A stretch of 10,408 bases of DNA from Bdellovibrionales bacterium (GTDB lineage: Bacteria; Bdellovibrionota; Bacteriovoracia; Bacteriovoracales; Bacteriovoracaceae), in assembly GCA_005791855.1 (NCBI GenBank), contig SXUH01000454.1, positions 1 to 10,408 on the forward strand. Direction: 5' to 3'. This document shows, piece after piece, positions 2 through 6,228 of this stretch (the first letter of the stretch is position 1; every line of letters starts with the position of its first letter). Below the pieces are notes generated by a model. The model was not told where the DNA came from and searched no databases. It worked only from the letters and a program-made list of their open reading frames with translations. Position numbers and translations under genes: made by a program.

Positions 2-565
2 TTCAAGAAAAGCTCTCCGGGCCCGCTGGACATCACGGAAGTGAATCCGAACAAGATGACCGCCCTGACTAAGAAGCATCTGATCAAGCTCACCCGGACC
101 TACGACCTCACTCCCTTCCTCTACTCGAGGGAGGTCAAGATCGAATCCTACGTGACCCCCCGGTCCCACCCGGTGATCACCCTCAACACCCGGTCCGCGA
201 GCTCTCCGGAGAAGATCCTCTCGAAGCTTTTGCACGAGGAGTTCCACTGGTGGGCGGTGGCCAATCCGGAGAAGACGGACGCGGCCATCGCGGAGCTCAA
301 GGAAAAGTTCCCCCGGATCCACGGCTACGACGAGATCCTCATCAACAAGTCGACCTACCTCCACCTCGGGATCTGCTGGCTCGAGTACAAGGCCCTGGAG
401 AAGTACATCGGCGAAGAGAAGGCCAAGGCCGTCATCACCGACATCATGAAGGTCGACAAGGTCTACCCGCGGATCTACGCCATGGTCCTCCGGAAGCAGA
501 GTGAGATCGGCGCCATCCTCCAGAAGAATTCCCTGGTCCCACCCGCGCTCAAAGGAAACATCTAA
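2..565 (+). CDS. HExxH-motif exported protein, paralog A (5' end outside window)
   Basis: The reading frame is open from the window edge, so the true start lies upstream; 187 residues are visible. A GTG at 41 is an in-frame codon but probably not the start: the paralog at 1566-2174 has about 40 residues, including a lipoprotein signal, before the matching ALTK segment, and only about 18 are visible here. Shared blocks in order are ALTK..LI, PFLY, SHPV.T.NTR, LLHEEFHWW (bases 227-253), TY.HL..C.LE..AL, DK.YP.IY and LVP. HEEFH fits the zinc-binding HExxH motif, and the conserved Glu in C-x-LE about 45 residues later could be a third ligand as in gluzincin peptidases; this is inference. I do not recognise a named family. 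The TAA stop overlaps the next ATG (TAATG), implying coupling to the phosphatase gene. Confidence 0.8.
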   Translation, partial: FKKSSPGPLDITEVNPNKMTALTKKHLIKLTRTYDLTPFLYSREVKIESYVTPRSHPVITLNTRSASSPEKILSKLLHEEFHWWAVANPEKTDAAIAELKEKFPRIHGYDEILINKSTYLHLGICWLEYKALEKYIGEEKAKAVITDIMKVDKVYPRIYAMVLRKQSEIGAILQKNSLVPPALKGNI

Positions 566-1569: not shown

Positions 1570-2174
1570 GCCGTCGCCCCGTCCTACCCTTTCTCCTCCT
1601 CCTCGGCTTCCTCGGATGTTCCAGCGCCCCCATTCCCGAAGAGCTGCCCTACGGGCTCGAGATCCGCGAGAAGAAGCAGAGCAAGTGGACCGCCCTCACC
1701 AAGCAGAACCTGATCCACCTGGCGCAGGTCTACAACCTCAAGCCCTTCCTCTACACCAAGAAGATCCGGATCGTTCCCAACGAGCCCTCCCACTCCCATC
1801 CGGTGCTGACCATCAACACCCGGTTCGCCGAGCAGCCCCGGAAGCTCCTCGCGACCCTCCTCCACGAGGAGTTCCACTGGTGGGTCGCGAAGAAGAAGTC
1901 CAGCTACAAGGTCGCGAGGGCTCAGCTCGGGAAGCTCTTCCCCAGGCCCACGGTCTACCGGAACAACCTCGAGGGGACCTACGAGCACCTGGTGGTCTGC
2001 TACCTCGAGCTCCGGGCCCTGACCGTCTTCCTTGGCCCTCAGGAAGCGCGGAAGACCGTCATCGAACTCATGTCGAAGGATAAGACCTACCCGTGGATCT
2101 ACTCCCAGGTCCTGACCAAGCACGAGCTCCTCAAGAAGATCGTCGAGTCGGCTAAGCTCGTCCCGAAGTTCTAG
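1566..2174 (+). CDS. HExxH-motif lipoprotein, paralog B
   Basis: A 202-residue protein starting at GTG 1566, whose last two bases are the first two of the upstream TGA stop (GTGA overlap). The frame stays open further upstream inside the phosphatase gene, but only from this GTG does it begin with a sensible signal: basic MSRRP, a leucine-rich core and a lipobox-like FLGC with Cys18, followed by SSAP. The mature part contains LLHEEFHWW with His100, Glu101 and His104 as probable metal-binding/catalytic residues, and a conserved CYLELRAL segment with Glu148 as a possible third ligand. It clearly resembles the protein encoded at 2-565 along its whole length. A zinc peptidase-like envelope lipoprotein is the best guess; no named family is recognised. 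Its TAG stop shares the CTAG at 2171-2174 with the convergent VWA gene. Confidence 0.85.
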   Translation: MSRRPVLPFLLLLGFLGCSSAPIPEELPYGLEIREKKQSKWTALTKQNLIHLAQVYNLKPFLYTKKIRIVPNEPSHSHPVLTINTRFAEQPRKLLATLLHEEFHWWVAKKKSSYKVARAQLGKLFPRPTVYRNNLEGTYEHLVVCYLELRALTVFLGPQEARKTVIELMSKDKTYPWIYSQVLTKHELLKKIVESAKLVPKF

Positions 2175-2986
2175 AACCCGACGAAGAAGCCCTTGTGGTC
2201 TGACGAGAGGAGGCTCAGGAACTTGTAGCGGTCGCTCTGCTTGTCCGTGGTGAACTCGGACCCGACGCCGATGGAGCTGATCCGCACCGCCCCCGTGTTC
2301 CTCCGCCGGACGGCCTCCAGGATGTCGTAGATGTCGTCCTTCTGGTTGGAGTTGTGGAGCGTGGGAGACCCGTCGGAGAGGACGACGATGTCGGAGAGGC
2401 CCGGGTAGTTCTGGAGGACGAAGAGGAGCGCGTCCCGGGTCGGCGTCCCGCCATCCGGCCTCATCCGGTAGATGAAGTCGAAGGCGTCGGACTTGTTCAC
2501 AGAAGTCGTGGCCCGGGTGGCGCCCCACAGGCTCTTGAAGGGAGCGACCTCGCCGAAGGGAAACTGGACGATGTCCACTTCGTGCGTCGACGGGAGGGAC
2601 GTGAGGAGCATCTTGAGCCCCGCCTTCACCTGCCCCATCCGGTCCTCCTCGGTCATGCTGTAGGAGGTGTCCACCAGGAAGACGATCTTCCTGCCCTTAA
2701 ACTGGAAGCCGACGTCGAACGGCCCCGCCTCGGCCGGAGGGATCTTCTTGTCCGCTTCCAGCTTCTCGAGCTTCGCCTGCGCGAGCTGGGCCTTGAGGGT
2801 CCGGACCTCGTCCCGGGACGCCTCCAAATCCTTCGAGAGGAACTCCGAGAGGCGGTCGGGTTCGAAGACCTTCGGCGGCGGCCCCTTGGGGATGGCGACG
2901 TAGAGGATGATCACGGCACCCAGGGCGCCGCAGATGAGATCCAGGAAGGAGATGGAGAAGACTTCGATGGGCCGGCGCCGCCTCAT
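2171..2986 (-). CDS. VWA-domain protein with ExbD/MotB-like membrane anchor
   Basis: A 271-residue protein. Residues 1-8 are basic and cytoplasmic; residues 11-32 form one membrane helix beginning SFLDLICGALGA with an acidic Asp16 at its start, resembling the helix of ExbD/TolR/MotB stator partners where a single Asp carries the ion. Residues 41-81 are charged heptad-like sequence (probable coiled-coil stalk). From about 98 to the end is a von Willebrand A domain with a full metal-ion-dependent adhesion site: DTSYS (Asp106, Ser108, Ser110), Thr181 in GGTPTRDAL and Asp205 in VVLSDGSP. Topology puts the VWA domain outside the inner membrane. The ATG overlaps the stop of the upstream MotA/ExbB-type gene (ATGA), so the two are translated together. 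VWA and anchor assignments are strong; pairing as a motor complex is inference from context. Confidence 0.9.
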   Translation of the reverse strand: MRRRRPIEVFSISFLDLICGALGAVIILYVAIPKGPPPKVFEPDRLSEFLSKDLEASRDEVRTLKAQLAQAKLEKLEADKKIPPAEAGPFDVGFQFKGRKIVFLVDTSYSMTEEDRMGQVKAGLKMLLTSLPSTHEVDIVQFPFGEVAPFKSLWGATRATTSVNKSDAFDFIYRMRPDGGTPTRDALLFVLQNYPGLSDIVVLSDGSPTLHNSNQKDDIYDILEAVRRRNTGAVRISSIGVGSEFTTDKQSDRYKFLSLLSSDHKGFFVGF

Positions 2987-3729
2987 ACCGTCTCGATCTT
3001 ATTGATGAGGTTCTCGATGACGAATTCCTTCAGGTCCGAGTGGAAGCTGTCGGTCTCCTCCTGCAGCTGGTGGACGAACCACATGATGACGATGGACAGG
3101 ACCAGCGCCACGAGGGTGGTGTCGAAGGCCACGCCGAGGAGGGCGGTGATCTTCTCCATGTCTCCGGAGTTGGCGACGATCATCGCCTGGGAGATCCCGA
3201 TCACCGTTCCGACGAAGCCGATGGACGGGATCACCCAGGACAGGTAGCGGATGGTGGACTGGCTCCCCTCCGCCTTTTCCTGGGAGACTTCGATCTGGAT
3301 GCTCACGATGTCGATGAGGTCGGAGAGCGACCCGGAGGTCCGGAACTTCGTGCAGGCCTTCTTCAGGAGATCGCTCAGGATGTACTTCTCCCGCTTCTCG
3401 AACTCGATGAGCTTGAACTTCAGGTTATTGATGTCCGAGGGCATGAAGACGTGCTTCTCCCCGGTGGGGATGAGCCCGAGGCTGAAGGCCCTGCGCTCCC
3501 GCTTGATGATCCGGAGCTTTTCCTGTACCTCGAACCAGGCCCAGAAGAAGGCCAGGTAGGTGAAGGTCTGGACGTACCCCCCGTTTTTAACGTCTGCGCC
3601 CAAGAGCATTAAAAACCGGTGGAGCGCTGGCGATTCTTCCCTCGAGGTGCTCCCCAGCAAAAACATGCAGATACTCGTTATAAGAAGCGCCAAAACTAAC
3701 GAAATAGTTAGGCTTCTAAGGTTTTTCAT
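2983..3729 (-). CDS. MotA/TolQ/ExbB-type proton channel family protein
   Basis: A 248-residue membrane protein from ATG 3729; a TTG at 3738 would add three residues (MCE), but the ATG gives the normal MKNLRSL start. No strong Shine-Dalgarno is visible for either. Predicted helices lie at about 8-26, 54-69, 162-185 and 194-219, with a large charged cytoplasmic loop (70-160) between helices 2 and 3. Helix 3 carries WVIPSIGFVGTVIGIS, the signature of TolQ/ExbB/MotA proteins, and helix 4 has AFDTTLVALVLSI, matching the conserved small/Thr face lining the ion path. These proteins form a pentamer round a dimer of an ExbD/MotB partner and convert ion flow into movement. The partner is almost certainly the VWA protein encoded immediately downstream with a 3-base overlap. 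No peptidoglycan-binding MotB, TonB or TolA is present nearby. Confidence 0.9.
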   Translation of the reverse strand: MKNLRSLTISLVLALLITSICMFLLGSTSREESPALHRFLMLLGADVKNGGYVQTFTYLAFFWAWFEVQEKLRIIKRERRAFSLGLIPTGEKHVFMPSDINNLKFKLIEFEKREKYILSDLLKKACTKFRTSGSLSDLIDIVSIQIEVSQEKAEGSQSTIRYLSWVIPSIGFVGTVIGISQAMIVANSGDMEKITALLGVAFDTTLVALVLSIVIMWFVHQLQEETDSFHSDLKEFVIENLINKIETV

Positions 3730-3799
3730 CTCGCACAATCCGTGTTATTAAAGCTTATTATCGGTATCGGTAGTTCCGTTAAAAAGCTAAGGGAGCCCT
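3730..3799. promoter_or_regulatory. Divergent intergenic region between channel gene and ilvE
   Basis: This 70-bp AT-rich gap must hold the promoters for the leftward channel/VWA pair and rightward ilvE. It contains a tandem TATCGG TATCGG TA at 3759-3772. For ilvE a weak match is TTTTCA (3723-3728), 17 bp, TATTAA (3746-3751); no convincing pair is seen for the leftward genes. The ilvE Shine-Dalgarno AAGGGAG lies at 3789-3795, four bases before the ATG. The promoter positions are uncertain. Confidence 0.4.
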
Positions 3800-4947: not shown

Positions 4948-6228
4948 TTATCCGATCGTCGGCAGGAGCTCGAAGCAGATGATCGCCACCGCGGTCGGGA
5001 AGAGCGCTCCCTTCAGGAGGCCAATCGGCGTGATCCCGTTCTCCCCGAAGGACTCCTTGAGGATCCCGAAGCCGGCCGGGTTCGGAGCGTTCGCGATCAC
5101 GGTCAATCCCCCGCCGGTCACCGCACCGGCCACGAGGAAGTACTTGGCGGATTCGGTGAGCTCCACCAGGGAGCCGAGGTACGTGAGGGCGGCGTTGTCG
5201 GTGATCCCCGTGAGGGCGGTGGCGCCGAAGTAGAGGACCTGGTCGGTGAGGCTCGAGATGAGCGGCTGGAGCCACCACTTCTGCGGAGTCCCGAGGACGA
5301 TGAGGCCCGCGAGGAAGAAGCCGACCATGAGGGAGGACTTCACCTGCACCTCGTCCTGGTACTCCTTGGTCACGATGGTGAACCCGAGGAAGAAGAGGAA
5401 GAGGCCCATGAACACCACCATGTGGTGAGCCGTGAGGACCACGAGACCGATGAAGACGATGTGGAAGAGGGTCACCCACCACGGCGGGAGCATCTTCTCG
5501 TTGTTGTCGGCCCGGAGCTGGAAGTCACCCTGGAGCTCGTTCTTGAAGTAGAAGGCGATGGTGAGGGCGCTGACGAGACAGGAGATGGCGGCCTTGTAGC
5601 CGAAGGCCTTGAACATGTGGGCCATGCCCCAGCCCCACTTCCCCGCCACCATGAGGACCGGAGGGGCCGCGAAGTGGGTCAGGGTCCCGCCGATGGAGAC
5701 GTTCACGAAGAGCAGCCCGATGGTGGCGTACTTGAACTTCGTGCTCATTTCCTTCGAGTAGAAGTTCTTCAGGAGGATGATCGCGGTCACGGTCATGGCC
5801 GCGGGCTCGGTGATGAAGGACCCGAGGAGGGGCCCGACCACCATCACGGTGAAGTAGAAGGCCATCTTCCGCGGGAGCGGAACGACCTTCGAGATCGCGA
5901 CGATGGTCTTCTCCGCGAGCTTGATCACCGGCCTCGTCCCCGCCATCGCCATGATGACGAAGACGAACCCCGGCTCGGTGAAGTTCAGGGACTCGAGGTA
6001 CGTGACGGGCGCGTGGAAGCCGTCGACGCCGATGACGACCAGGACGAAGACCAGGGCCCACATCCCGAACACCGCCTCCACCTCCGCCAGGAAGTGGAAG
6101 AAGTTCTCGCCCATGGAGCCTTCTGGGTAGTGATGAGCGATCTTTGCGAAATAGCTCACGACGAACGTGTGGAGCACCGCCAGTGTGAAAATCACCGTGG
6201 CAGCGATCTCGATGATACTCGGATTCAT
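4948..6228 (-). CDS. Putative Na+/H+ antiporter
   Basis: A 426-residue, very hydrophobic inner-membrane protein with roughly ten or more predicted helices. It resembles the putative Na+/H+ antiporter family (Pfam Na_H_antiport_2) within the ion transporter superfamily. Paired conserved segments, typical of the two-fold pseudo-repeats of such carriers, are GSFITEPAAMTVTA (136-149) with NVSIGGTLTHFAAPPV (176-191), and GITDNAALTYLGS (341-353) with GGGLTVIANAPNPAG (372-386). Acidic residues in ITEP and ITDN are good candidates for ion binding. The start ATG at 6228 follows a strong GGGGAAGG. It lies 74 bp downstream of the ferredoxin gene on the same strand with no terminator between, so the two may be co-transcribed. 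Family assignment is good; the transported ion is known only by family inference. Confidence 0.88.
   Translation of the reverse strand: MNPSIIEIAATVIFTLAVLHTFVVSYFAKIAHHYPEGSMGENFFHFLAEVEAVFGMWALVFVLVVIGVDGFHAPVTYLESLNFTEPGFVFVIMAMAGTRPVIKLAEKTIVAISKVVPLPRKMAFYFTVMVVGPLLGSFITEPAAMTVTAIILLKNFYSKEMSTKFKYATIGLLFVNVSIGGTLTHFAAPPVLMVAGKWGWGMAHMFKAFGYKAAISCLVSALTIAFYFKNELQGDFQLRADNNEKMLPPWWVTLFHIVFIGLVVLTAHHMVVFMGLFLFFLGFTIVTKEYQDEVQVKSSLMVGFFLAGLIVLGTPQKWWLQPLISSLTDQVLYFGATALTGITDNAALTYLGSLVELTESAKYFLVAGAVTGGGLTVIANAPNPAGFGILKESFGENGITPIGLLKGALFPTAVAIICFELLPTIG

Follow-up and report, generated by a model that had tools for sequence, protein, structure and literature searches.

In the well-studied 5:2 motors, to our knowledge, the axle terminates in a wall-binding domain, in a domain that meets a TonB or TolA partner, or in a long shaft such as that of GldM. 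The subject of this report is a two-gene candidate for an ion-driven motor in which a TolQ/ExbB/MotA-type channel would be joined to a protein ending in a VWA domain. The genes lie in the window (the whole stretch of DNA analysed, 10,408 nucleotides of contig SXUH01000454.1, assembly GCA_005791855.1), which comes from a Bdellovibrionales bacterium. The draft genome (3.0 Mb, 462 contigs) is 60% complete and its nearest named relatives are mostly titled Bacteriovoracaceae.

The closest described system is the TPH-vWA family. According to the main text of its description (Mol Biol Evol 2025, msaf138, PMC12204202), this family replaces TolR/ExbD: tolQ-like genes are found with genes for VWA proteins that carry a conserved Asp, and tolR/exbD are absent. 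The VWA proteins form predominantly heterologous pairs, are proposed to be force transducers and occur in Proteobacteria and Verrucomicrobia, and AlphaFold3 models of these two-VWA relatives put the Asp within a ring of pore threonines. The window pair likewise consists of a tolQ-like gene adjoining a helix-Asp-VWA gene, with no tolR or exbD nearby and with threonines that would line a pore occupied by the helix. It differs from the family as described in the main text in having one VWA gene rather than a heterologous pair and in its occurrence in Bacteriovoracaceae. The pair is thus a one-VWA-gene variant of a class already in print: section 8 of PMC12204202 describes that class, a brand-new motor class was rejected, and novelty of kind is not supported. 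The new details are the one-gene-per-axle form and the swappable tips of relatives. A word search of the main text of PMC12204202, as distinct from its supplement, returned neither Bacteriovorax nor homodimer, and the mentions of FHA and OmpA there concern other things; same-phylum relatives with OmpA or unnamed tips, and FHA genes beside channels, were not seen in that main text. A literature search on rotary motor, TolQ and VWA with Bacteriovorax names gave no match.

Three other systems show partial likeness. MotA/MotB and PomA/PomB share the single helix with an Asp, the output domain after a linker and, for PomA, a similar threonine triad, but their output domain is OmpA (as in some of the window's relatives) rather than VWA; no flagellar gene was found among the window proteins scanned with Pfam. 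TolQ/TolR and ExbB/ExbD share the channel fold and two-gene order, whereas the window pair has neither an ExbD/TolR domain nor a nearby ExbD gene, and the triad of E. coli ExbB is T-A-T rather than T-T-T. The AglR-AglQ-AglS motor of Myxococcus xanthus, as presented in the relevant parts of PMC3169522, has a TolQ-type channel, two ExbD-like genes and an FHA protein, GltG, recalling the FHA genes beside several distant relatives of the window; its partners are of the ExbD type, no VWA axle is reported in those parts, and the window-type locus has no FHA neighbour.

The analysis gives fold predictions for the individual parts and shows that the two genes pair obligately, that the helix, its Asp, the metal-ion-dependent adhesion site (MIDAS) and the pore threonines are conserved, and that no ExbD gene is nearby. 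We think it likely that the pair encodes one ion-driven motor of the 5:2 type with a VWA output, in which the helix would sit in the pore. Its features are as follows.

2171..2986, minus strand: helix-coil-VWA protein gene, presumed axle/output subunit, 271 aa plus stop (open reading frame, Pfam, alignment, AlphaFold2)
2174..2689, minus strand: VWA domain, residues 100-271, with C-terminal GFFVGF (Pfam, AlphaFold2, fold match)
2372-2374, minus strand: MIDAS D205, in 48/48 aligned proteins
2444-2446, minus strand: MIDAS T181, in 48/48 aligned proteins
2657..2671, minus strand: MIDAS motif DTSYS, residues 106-110 (alignment)
2750..2857, minus strand: coiled stalk, residues 44-79, sequence unconserved (AlphaFold2)
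2894..2950, minus strand: membrane helix, residues 13-31, inside the conserved stretch FSISFLDLICGALGAVIILYVAI (10-32) (AlphaFold2, conservation)
2939..2941, minus strand: Asp16 codon, presumed ion-binding residue, Asp in 47/48 aligned proteins
2983..2986, minus strand: ATGA overlap, 4 bases, of channel stop (TGA, 2985-2983) and VWA start (ATG, 2986-2984)
2983..3729, minus strand: MotA/TolQ/ExbB-type channel gene, 248 aa from a conserved ATG (open reading frame, Pfam, alignment, model, Foldseek)
3115..3120, minus strand: channel Thr204-Thr205 codons (AFDTTL), presumed pore-lining, in 47/47 aligned channels, aligning to PomA LLTTL
3205..3207, minus strand: channel Thr175 codon, presumed pore-lining, in 47/47 aligned channels, aligning to the threonine of PomA GTLVG

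Pairing of the channel and VWA genes

Both open reading frames (ORFs) named in an earlier note on this DNA are present on the minus strand. The channel frame stays open to 3738 (2983-3738, minus strand), and the ATG at 3729 agrees with the MKNLR start of its relatives. The overlap between the genes also exists, but it measures four bases and not the three first reported; such an ATGA arrangement is typical of translational coupling.

A set of 290 genomes drawn from the window's phylum was searched with VWA and channel profiles. Strong matches (VWA profile <1e-10, channel profile <1e-50, cut-offs chosen after the lists were seen) to both profiles were found in 45/290 genomes, and no genome had only one. 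The two genes are adjacent on one strand in all 45, the profile matches being separated by -1 to 108 bases. Fisher's test gives p ~7e-54 for this co-occurrence, which overstates the number of independent cases because the genomes are related. Each of the 45 genomes has one window-type VWA gene, and the window's own incomplete genome has one VWA gene of the family; second matches to the VWA profile are pieces of the same ORF, an OmpA-tipped protein of genome G223 or, in G047, a 432-aa frame that looks unrelated. At a looser channel cut-off (1e-15) 51 genomes are retained, and none of the six thus added has a window-type VWA gene: the channel's partner is OmpA-like in G055, G254 and G239 (contig-cut in G239), beta-rich in G080 and G212, and replaced by a contig end in G247. 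Only weak VWA-profile matches occur in 16 genomes, three of which were inspected; G080 and G212 have the helix with a beta-rich tip and G026 has an unrelated-looking 181-aa frame.

Within the genus, the VWA gene was found in 20/23 other genomes (two as contig-cut pieces) plus the window's own. The channel lies directly upstream at 20 of these 21 loci, and the remaining locus is cut by a contig end within the VWA gene. All 43 named loci (L039-L081; the window's own pair, overlain by longer antisense open frames, is left out) hold a channel gene with the VWA gene, and the next commonest gene cluster is present in at most 22; as the loci were drawn by VWA matches, only the presence of the channel is informative. 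At locus L072 (L157, G108:C8:10286-10962) the channel is split by an in-frame TGA and the VWA gene is intact, which may represent either an assembly error or decay.

In a wider set, 80 loci were kept of 124 confirmed. Window-type loci number 45 (L039-L081, L085, L089), and a channel gene or piece adjoins the VWA gene in every one, including the stop-split L072. Six loci belong to Bacteroidota (L082-L084, L086-L088; five titled Chitinophagales, one Bacteroidetes). Their VWA proteins have a longer coil and the same GF(F/Y)IG(F) motif, which is terminal in five and followed in L084 by ~200 further codons of open frame, and a PP2C-like gene lies nearby on the opposite strand (by Pfam for L086, by eye for the others). 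The other 29 loci (L090-L118) come from Desulfobacterales and kin, Verrucomicrobiota and kin, Gammaproteobacteria and one member of the Bacteroidales. A channel is present in 26 of them and the remaining three run off the contig upstream; two tandem ORFs matching the helix-VWA profile are found in 28/29 (one cut, L100). Judged by sequence, this tandem form is the published heterologous-pair form. The VWA nature of the paired genes is based on profile A1, sequence reading and the main text of PMC12204202; of the two L117 proteins, one matches VWA_2 in Pfam at 0.0021, short of the cut-off, and the other matches no VWA family there. Channel residues 203-205 are D-T-T in 23/23 single-VWA channels, as in the window, versus N-S-T in 20/20 paired-VWA channels (20 of 26 were entered), and this difference separates the single-VWA from the two-VWA form.

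Proposed motor architecture and coupling ion

The channel protein matches MotA_ExbB (PF01618) at 1.8e-12 (47.6 bits versus a curated cut-off of 22.9). Its AlphaFold2 model has a mean predicted local distance difference test (pLDDT) score of 89, and the best Foldseek match of the monomer model is TolQ (9avi, E=1.5e-4), with TolQ-TolR (8vlw), TolQRA (9kpz) and ExbB (5sv0) also found. The query-normalised template modelling score to TolQ is 0.63-0.65, and the predicted fold is nearer to TolQ/ExbB than to the flagellar stator channel. The channel identity proposed in the earlier note is borne out by these matches. In addition to the three threonines, D203 is conserved in 47/47 aligned channels; the wider alignments (48 VWA proteins, 47 channels) count the window. 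Near-copies and contig-cut genes were dropped from alignments A1-A4, and the split L072 channel was dropped as well.

The partner protein matches VWA_3 (1.6e-9) and VWA (7.5e-8) in Pfam, both above cut-off. AlphaFold2 (mean pLDDT 84) predicts that residues 13-31 form a helix, 44-79 a coil and 100-271 a VWA fold, and the top Foldseek match of the VWA domain model is inter-alpha-inhibitor heavy chain 1. Among 18 genus rows, invariant positions amount to 21/29 in helix residues 6-34, 0/58 in the stalk and 67/179 in the VWA part, with the closing GFFVGF invariant in 18/18. MIDAS residues D106, S108 and S110 are kept in 48/48 aligned proteins together with T181 and D205, completing the predicted metal site (DxSxS, T, D). 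The N-terminal tail is basic (net charge +3) and precedes a single helix whose Asp16 would lie near the cytoplasmic end; the basic tail and the position of the Asp are the reasons for placing the VWA domain in the periplasm. Asp16, the MIDAS residues and the channel threonines are all as the earlier note gave them, and the conservation of Asp16, set as a check beforehand, was confirmed.

In the proposed mechanism, the channel protein would form a TolQ-like pentamer and the N-terminal helices of two copies of the VWA protein, presumably a homodimer since there is only one VWA gene, would run through its pore. The ion-binding residue would be Asp16, lying towards the cytoplasmic side of the pore and facing Thr175, Thr204 and Thr205. 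Ion flow would turn or lever the dimer, the coiled stalk would pass this motion to two periplasmic VWA domains, and their MIDAS sites may bind and release an envelope partner. That the VWA output serves adhesion or assembly is a guess.

Several results weigh against such a motor. The VWA protein has no ExbD, MotB or OmpA match up to E=1 in Pfam, and no ExbD/TolR/MotB family profile match up to E=1 in Pfam or in NCBIfam. The VWA gene is absent from 3/24 genus genomes (the window's counted), and literature searches found no experiment on the pair. At the Bacteroidota VWA loci no channel was found within the locus (6/6), and in 2/6 of these genomes no channel of this type was found; the other four encode one elsewhere (profile E 1.8e-70 to 8.1e-86). 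One Bacteroidota protein, that of L083, is the aligned exception at position 16, with Ile replacing Asp. This relative (L083:5347-6636) comes from a genome that nevertheless encodes a channel of the type (L140), and its product is possibly uncoupled or a heterodimer partner. The earlier note's central idea, a channel with a MotB/ExbD-like helix and a VWA output, and its co-occurrence check therefore stand for the window's own family, where pairing is obligate (45/45) and Asp16 is kept, but not for the Bacteroidota relatives, whose VWA genes lack an adjacent channel.

The channel profile matches PomA (E=1.8e-4), and T175 and T204-T205 align to the PomA triad T158/T185/T186. In control comparisons (one antisense row was ignored), the triad is T-A-T in E. 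coli ExbB, A-G-T in E. coli MotA and T-T-T in the window; four ExbB/TolQ-like channels from other genomes have T-A-T, and many other ExbB-like proteins have T-T-T. The threonine triad resembles that of Na+-driven stators, and sodium coupling is offered as a suggestion because T-T-T also occurs in many ExbB-like proteins whose ion is unassigned. The triad as proof of sodium coupling was rejected for the same reason, and the protons assumed in the earlier note are unsupported as stated.

The window's genome encodes eight PF01618 genes, and the window channel scores lowest of the seven listed, the eighth presumably being weaker still. The same genome has six ExbD genes, all on other contigs. Among the 13 genus genomes that have the pair (the window's own counted), the contig that carries it has no ExbD gene closer than 69 kb; one is found on the pair's contig only in G003 and G011, at least 69 kb away. 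The window channel is therefore one of several in the cell, with no ExbD partner beside it, and the earlier claim that no usual Exb/Tol genes accompany the pair is correct for its vicinity but not for the whole genome. As these numbers mean that other motors exist in the cell, the VWA protein might be a TolA/TonB-like force transducer docked on the outside of the channel, with another ExbD/TolR protein as the true axle; a vWA transducer family with an SHLS motif is described in PMC12204202, as far as its main text goes. We consider this quite unlikely for four reasons. First, the helix sequences do not carry the SHLS motif with its conserved His. Second, the Asp is about where E. coli ExbD and MotB have theirs. 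Third, the vicinity of the pair is free of ExbD genes in 13/13 genus genomes. Fourth, relatives have OmpA replacing VWA after the helix.

A weak PADLOC match of the channel to ZorA (5.5e-7) raised the prospect of an anti-phage motor of the Zorya kind. The VWA protein has no PADLOC match, the Pfam scan, which covered eight window proteins, showed no nuclease or helicase, and the VWA gene is not patchily distributed in the genus (20/23 other members). A Zorya-like motor is thus highly improbable, and the defence identity was rejected with only the weak ZorA match and nothing for the partner.

Tips and possible cytoplasmic partners of related channels

Behind a similar helix, other output domains are found in the same phylum. 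Pfam identifies a tip of OmpA, the kind of domain by which MotB is anchored, in L151 (5e-10) and L152 (7e-10); L154 and the contig-cut L153 are OmpA-type by their resemblance to L152, and the L151 genome (G223) also carries a window-type pair. In L147, L148 and L149 the tip is beta-rich and resembles that of Bacteroidales locus L101. The beta-rich label was read from the sequence, and these tips have no Pfam domain above cut-off. The channel gene adjoins the helix/beta-rich gene in L148 and L149; no channel was found in the fetched stretch of L147.

A first channel tree (with the 23 single-VWA and 20 paired-VWA channels) joined two long branches, L151 and L156. The approximately unbiased test rejected a tree that unites all four OmpA-type channels in one clade (p-AU 0.0004). 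Without L156, L148 and L135, L151 still falls inside the window-type clade, in an unsettled place (16-23% bootstrap at the nearest forks). Because the OmpA-type channels form no single clade, there has probably been more than one exchange of the output tip, with exact tree places unsure owing to long branches. The occurrence of the helix with other tips supports the channel and helix as a general engine of which VWA is the tip. A protein search with the helix region gave 219 proteins; the 120 listed are 260-288 aa long and nearly all have a VWA domain, and other tips could hardly appear in it because only proteins of similar length were admitted.

FHA genes were scored by a home-made profile seeded from Pfam matches, with nine proteins confirmed by Pfam. 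None was found by this profile at the 43 window-type loci. Among the two-VWA loci, 8/28 have one, six of them beside the channel and two beside the VWA genes where the channel is off the contig. FHA genes are also present in L101, in 3/4 Bacteroidota channel loci and in 5/7 phylum channel loci that contain no window-type VWA gene (L148, L149, L151-L155). L101 (L101:2469-9106) is a compact cluster of PP2C, FHA, kinase-FHA, helix/beta-rich, channel and FHA/trypsin-like genes, the first FHA being assigned by the home-made profile and showing a zinc ribbon by eye; its composition suggests a phospho-regulated membrane motor. In L117 of Desulfobacterales, a protein with a C-terminal FHA domain is encoded between the channel and the first VWA gene (L117:3263-4702), and its long N-terminal part has no Pfam name but looks actin/Hsp70-like by eye. 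The parts of PMC3169522 on the Myxococcus gliding machine include the FHA-domain protein GltG among its components. A literature search for an FHA domain with TolQ and vWA gave no match.

Because FHA genes stand beside related channels but at 0/43 window-type loci, phospho-control is a plausible idea for the class and, in the case of the window's pair, lacks support. The same genes bear on the idea of a gated channel or ion-coupled sensor, in which the VWA dimer would plug the pore, a MIDAS ligand would open it and the state of the envelope would be signalled inward. VWA domains often sense ligand or force, and signalling is suggested by the FHA, PP2C and kinase genes that accompany related channels in other lineages. 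The window-type loci are devoid of FHA genes, and the characterised relatives known to us generate force, so that we hold a gated sensor to be unlikely.

Returning to an ion-driven motor, a broader picture can be put forward tentatively, as one we consider less likely than not: a modular motor class with a conserved channel-helix engine and exchangeable tips (VWA homodimer, VWA heterodimer, OmpA, beta-rich), often steered by cytoplasmic FHA/phosphorylation partners, of which the window would be a minimal two-gene, perhaps sodium-coupled engine pulling on a MIDAS ligand. Three results were less expected: output domains are exchanged within one phylum, Bacteroidota keep the VWA gene and the channel gene at separate loci, and related channels have FHA genes as neighbours.

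Neighbouring genes and significance

A functional link of the pair to neighbouring genes (PhoD-like, antiporter, aminotransferase) was rejected, as the neighbours vary across the family and the pair stays. A putative Na+/H+ antiporter gene lies near the pair (window 4948-6228, minus strand; PF07399, 9.7e-170). Its close relatives (73-86% identical) are part of a common neighbourhood in 18/43 named loci, and coincidence may therefore explain why it sits close to a perhaps sodium-coupled motor. On the plus strand, two paralogues that share an HEEFHWW (HExxH-like) motif are encoded (window 41-565 and ~1580-2174), on either side of a PhoD-like phosphatase gene (565-1569). The first paralogue, which the Pfam scan covered, belongs to no Pfam family, and relatives recur in the loci that hold the motor pair (17 of them with the window counted, cluster 5).

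A MIDAS protein, Bd0875, matters for prey entry by Bdellovibrio, according to the relevant part of PMC11003981. It is a different, lipobox protein, and provides an analogy only for the window VWA protein.

If the motor reading is true, no system would be simpler than this minimal two-gene motor with a metal-dependent binding tip for asking whether motors of the kind can do work by direct contact through a MIDAS. Domain exchange could be tested with the natural relatives that carry OmpA or another tip on a related engine. In other lineages, related channels have FHA, PP2C and kinase genes next to them, which hints at phospho-control of envelope motors. The Bacteriovoracaceae hold predators of other bacteria, and the window-type form is thus found in a family in which envelope mechanics matter.

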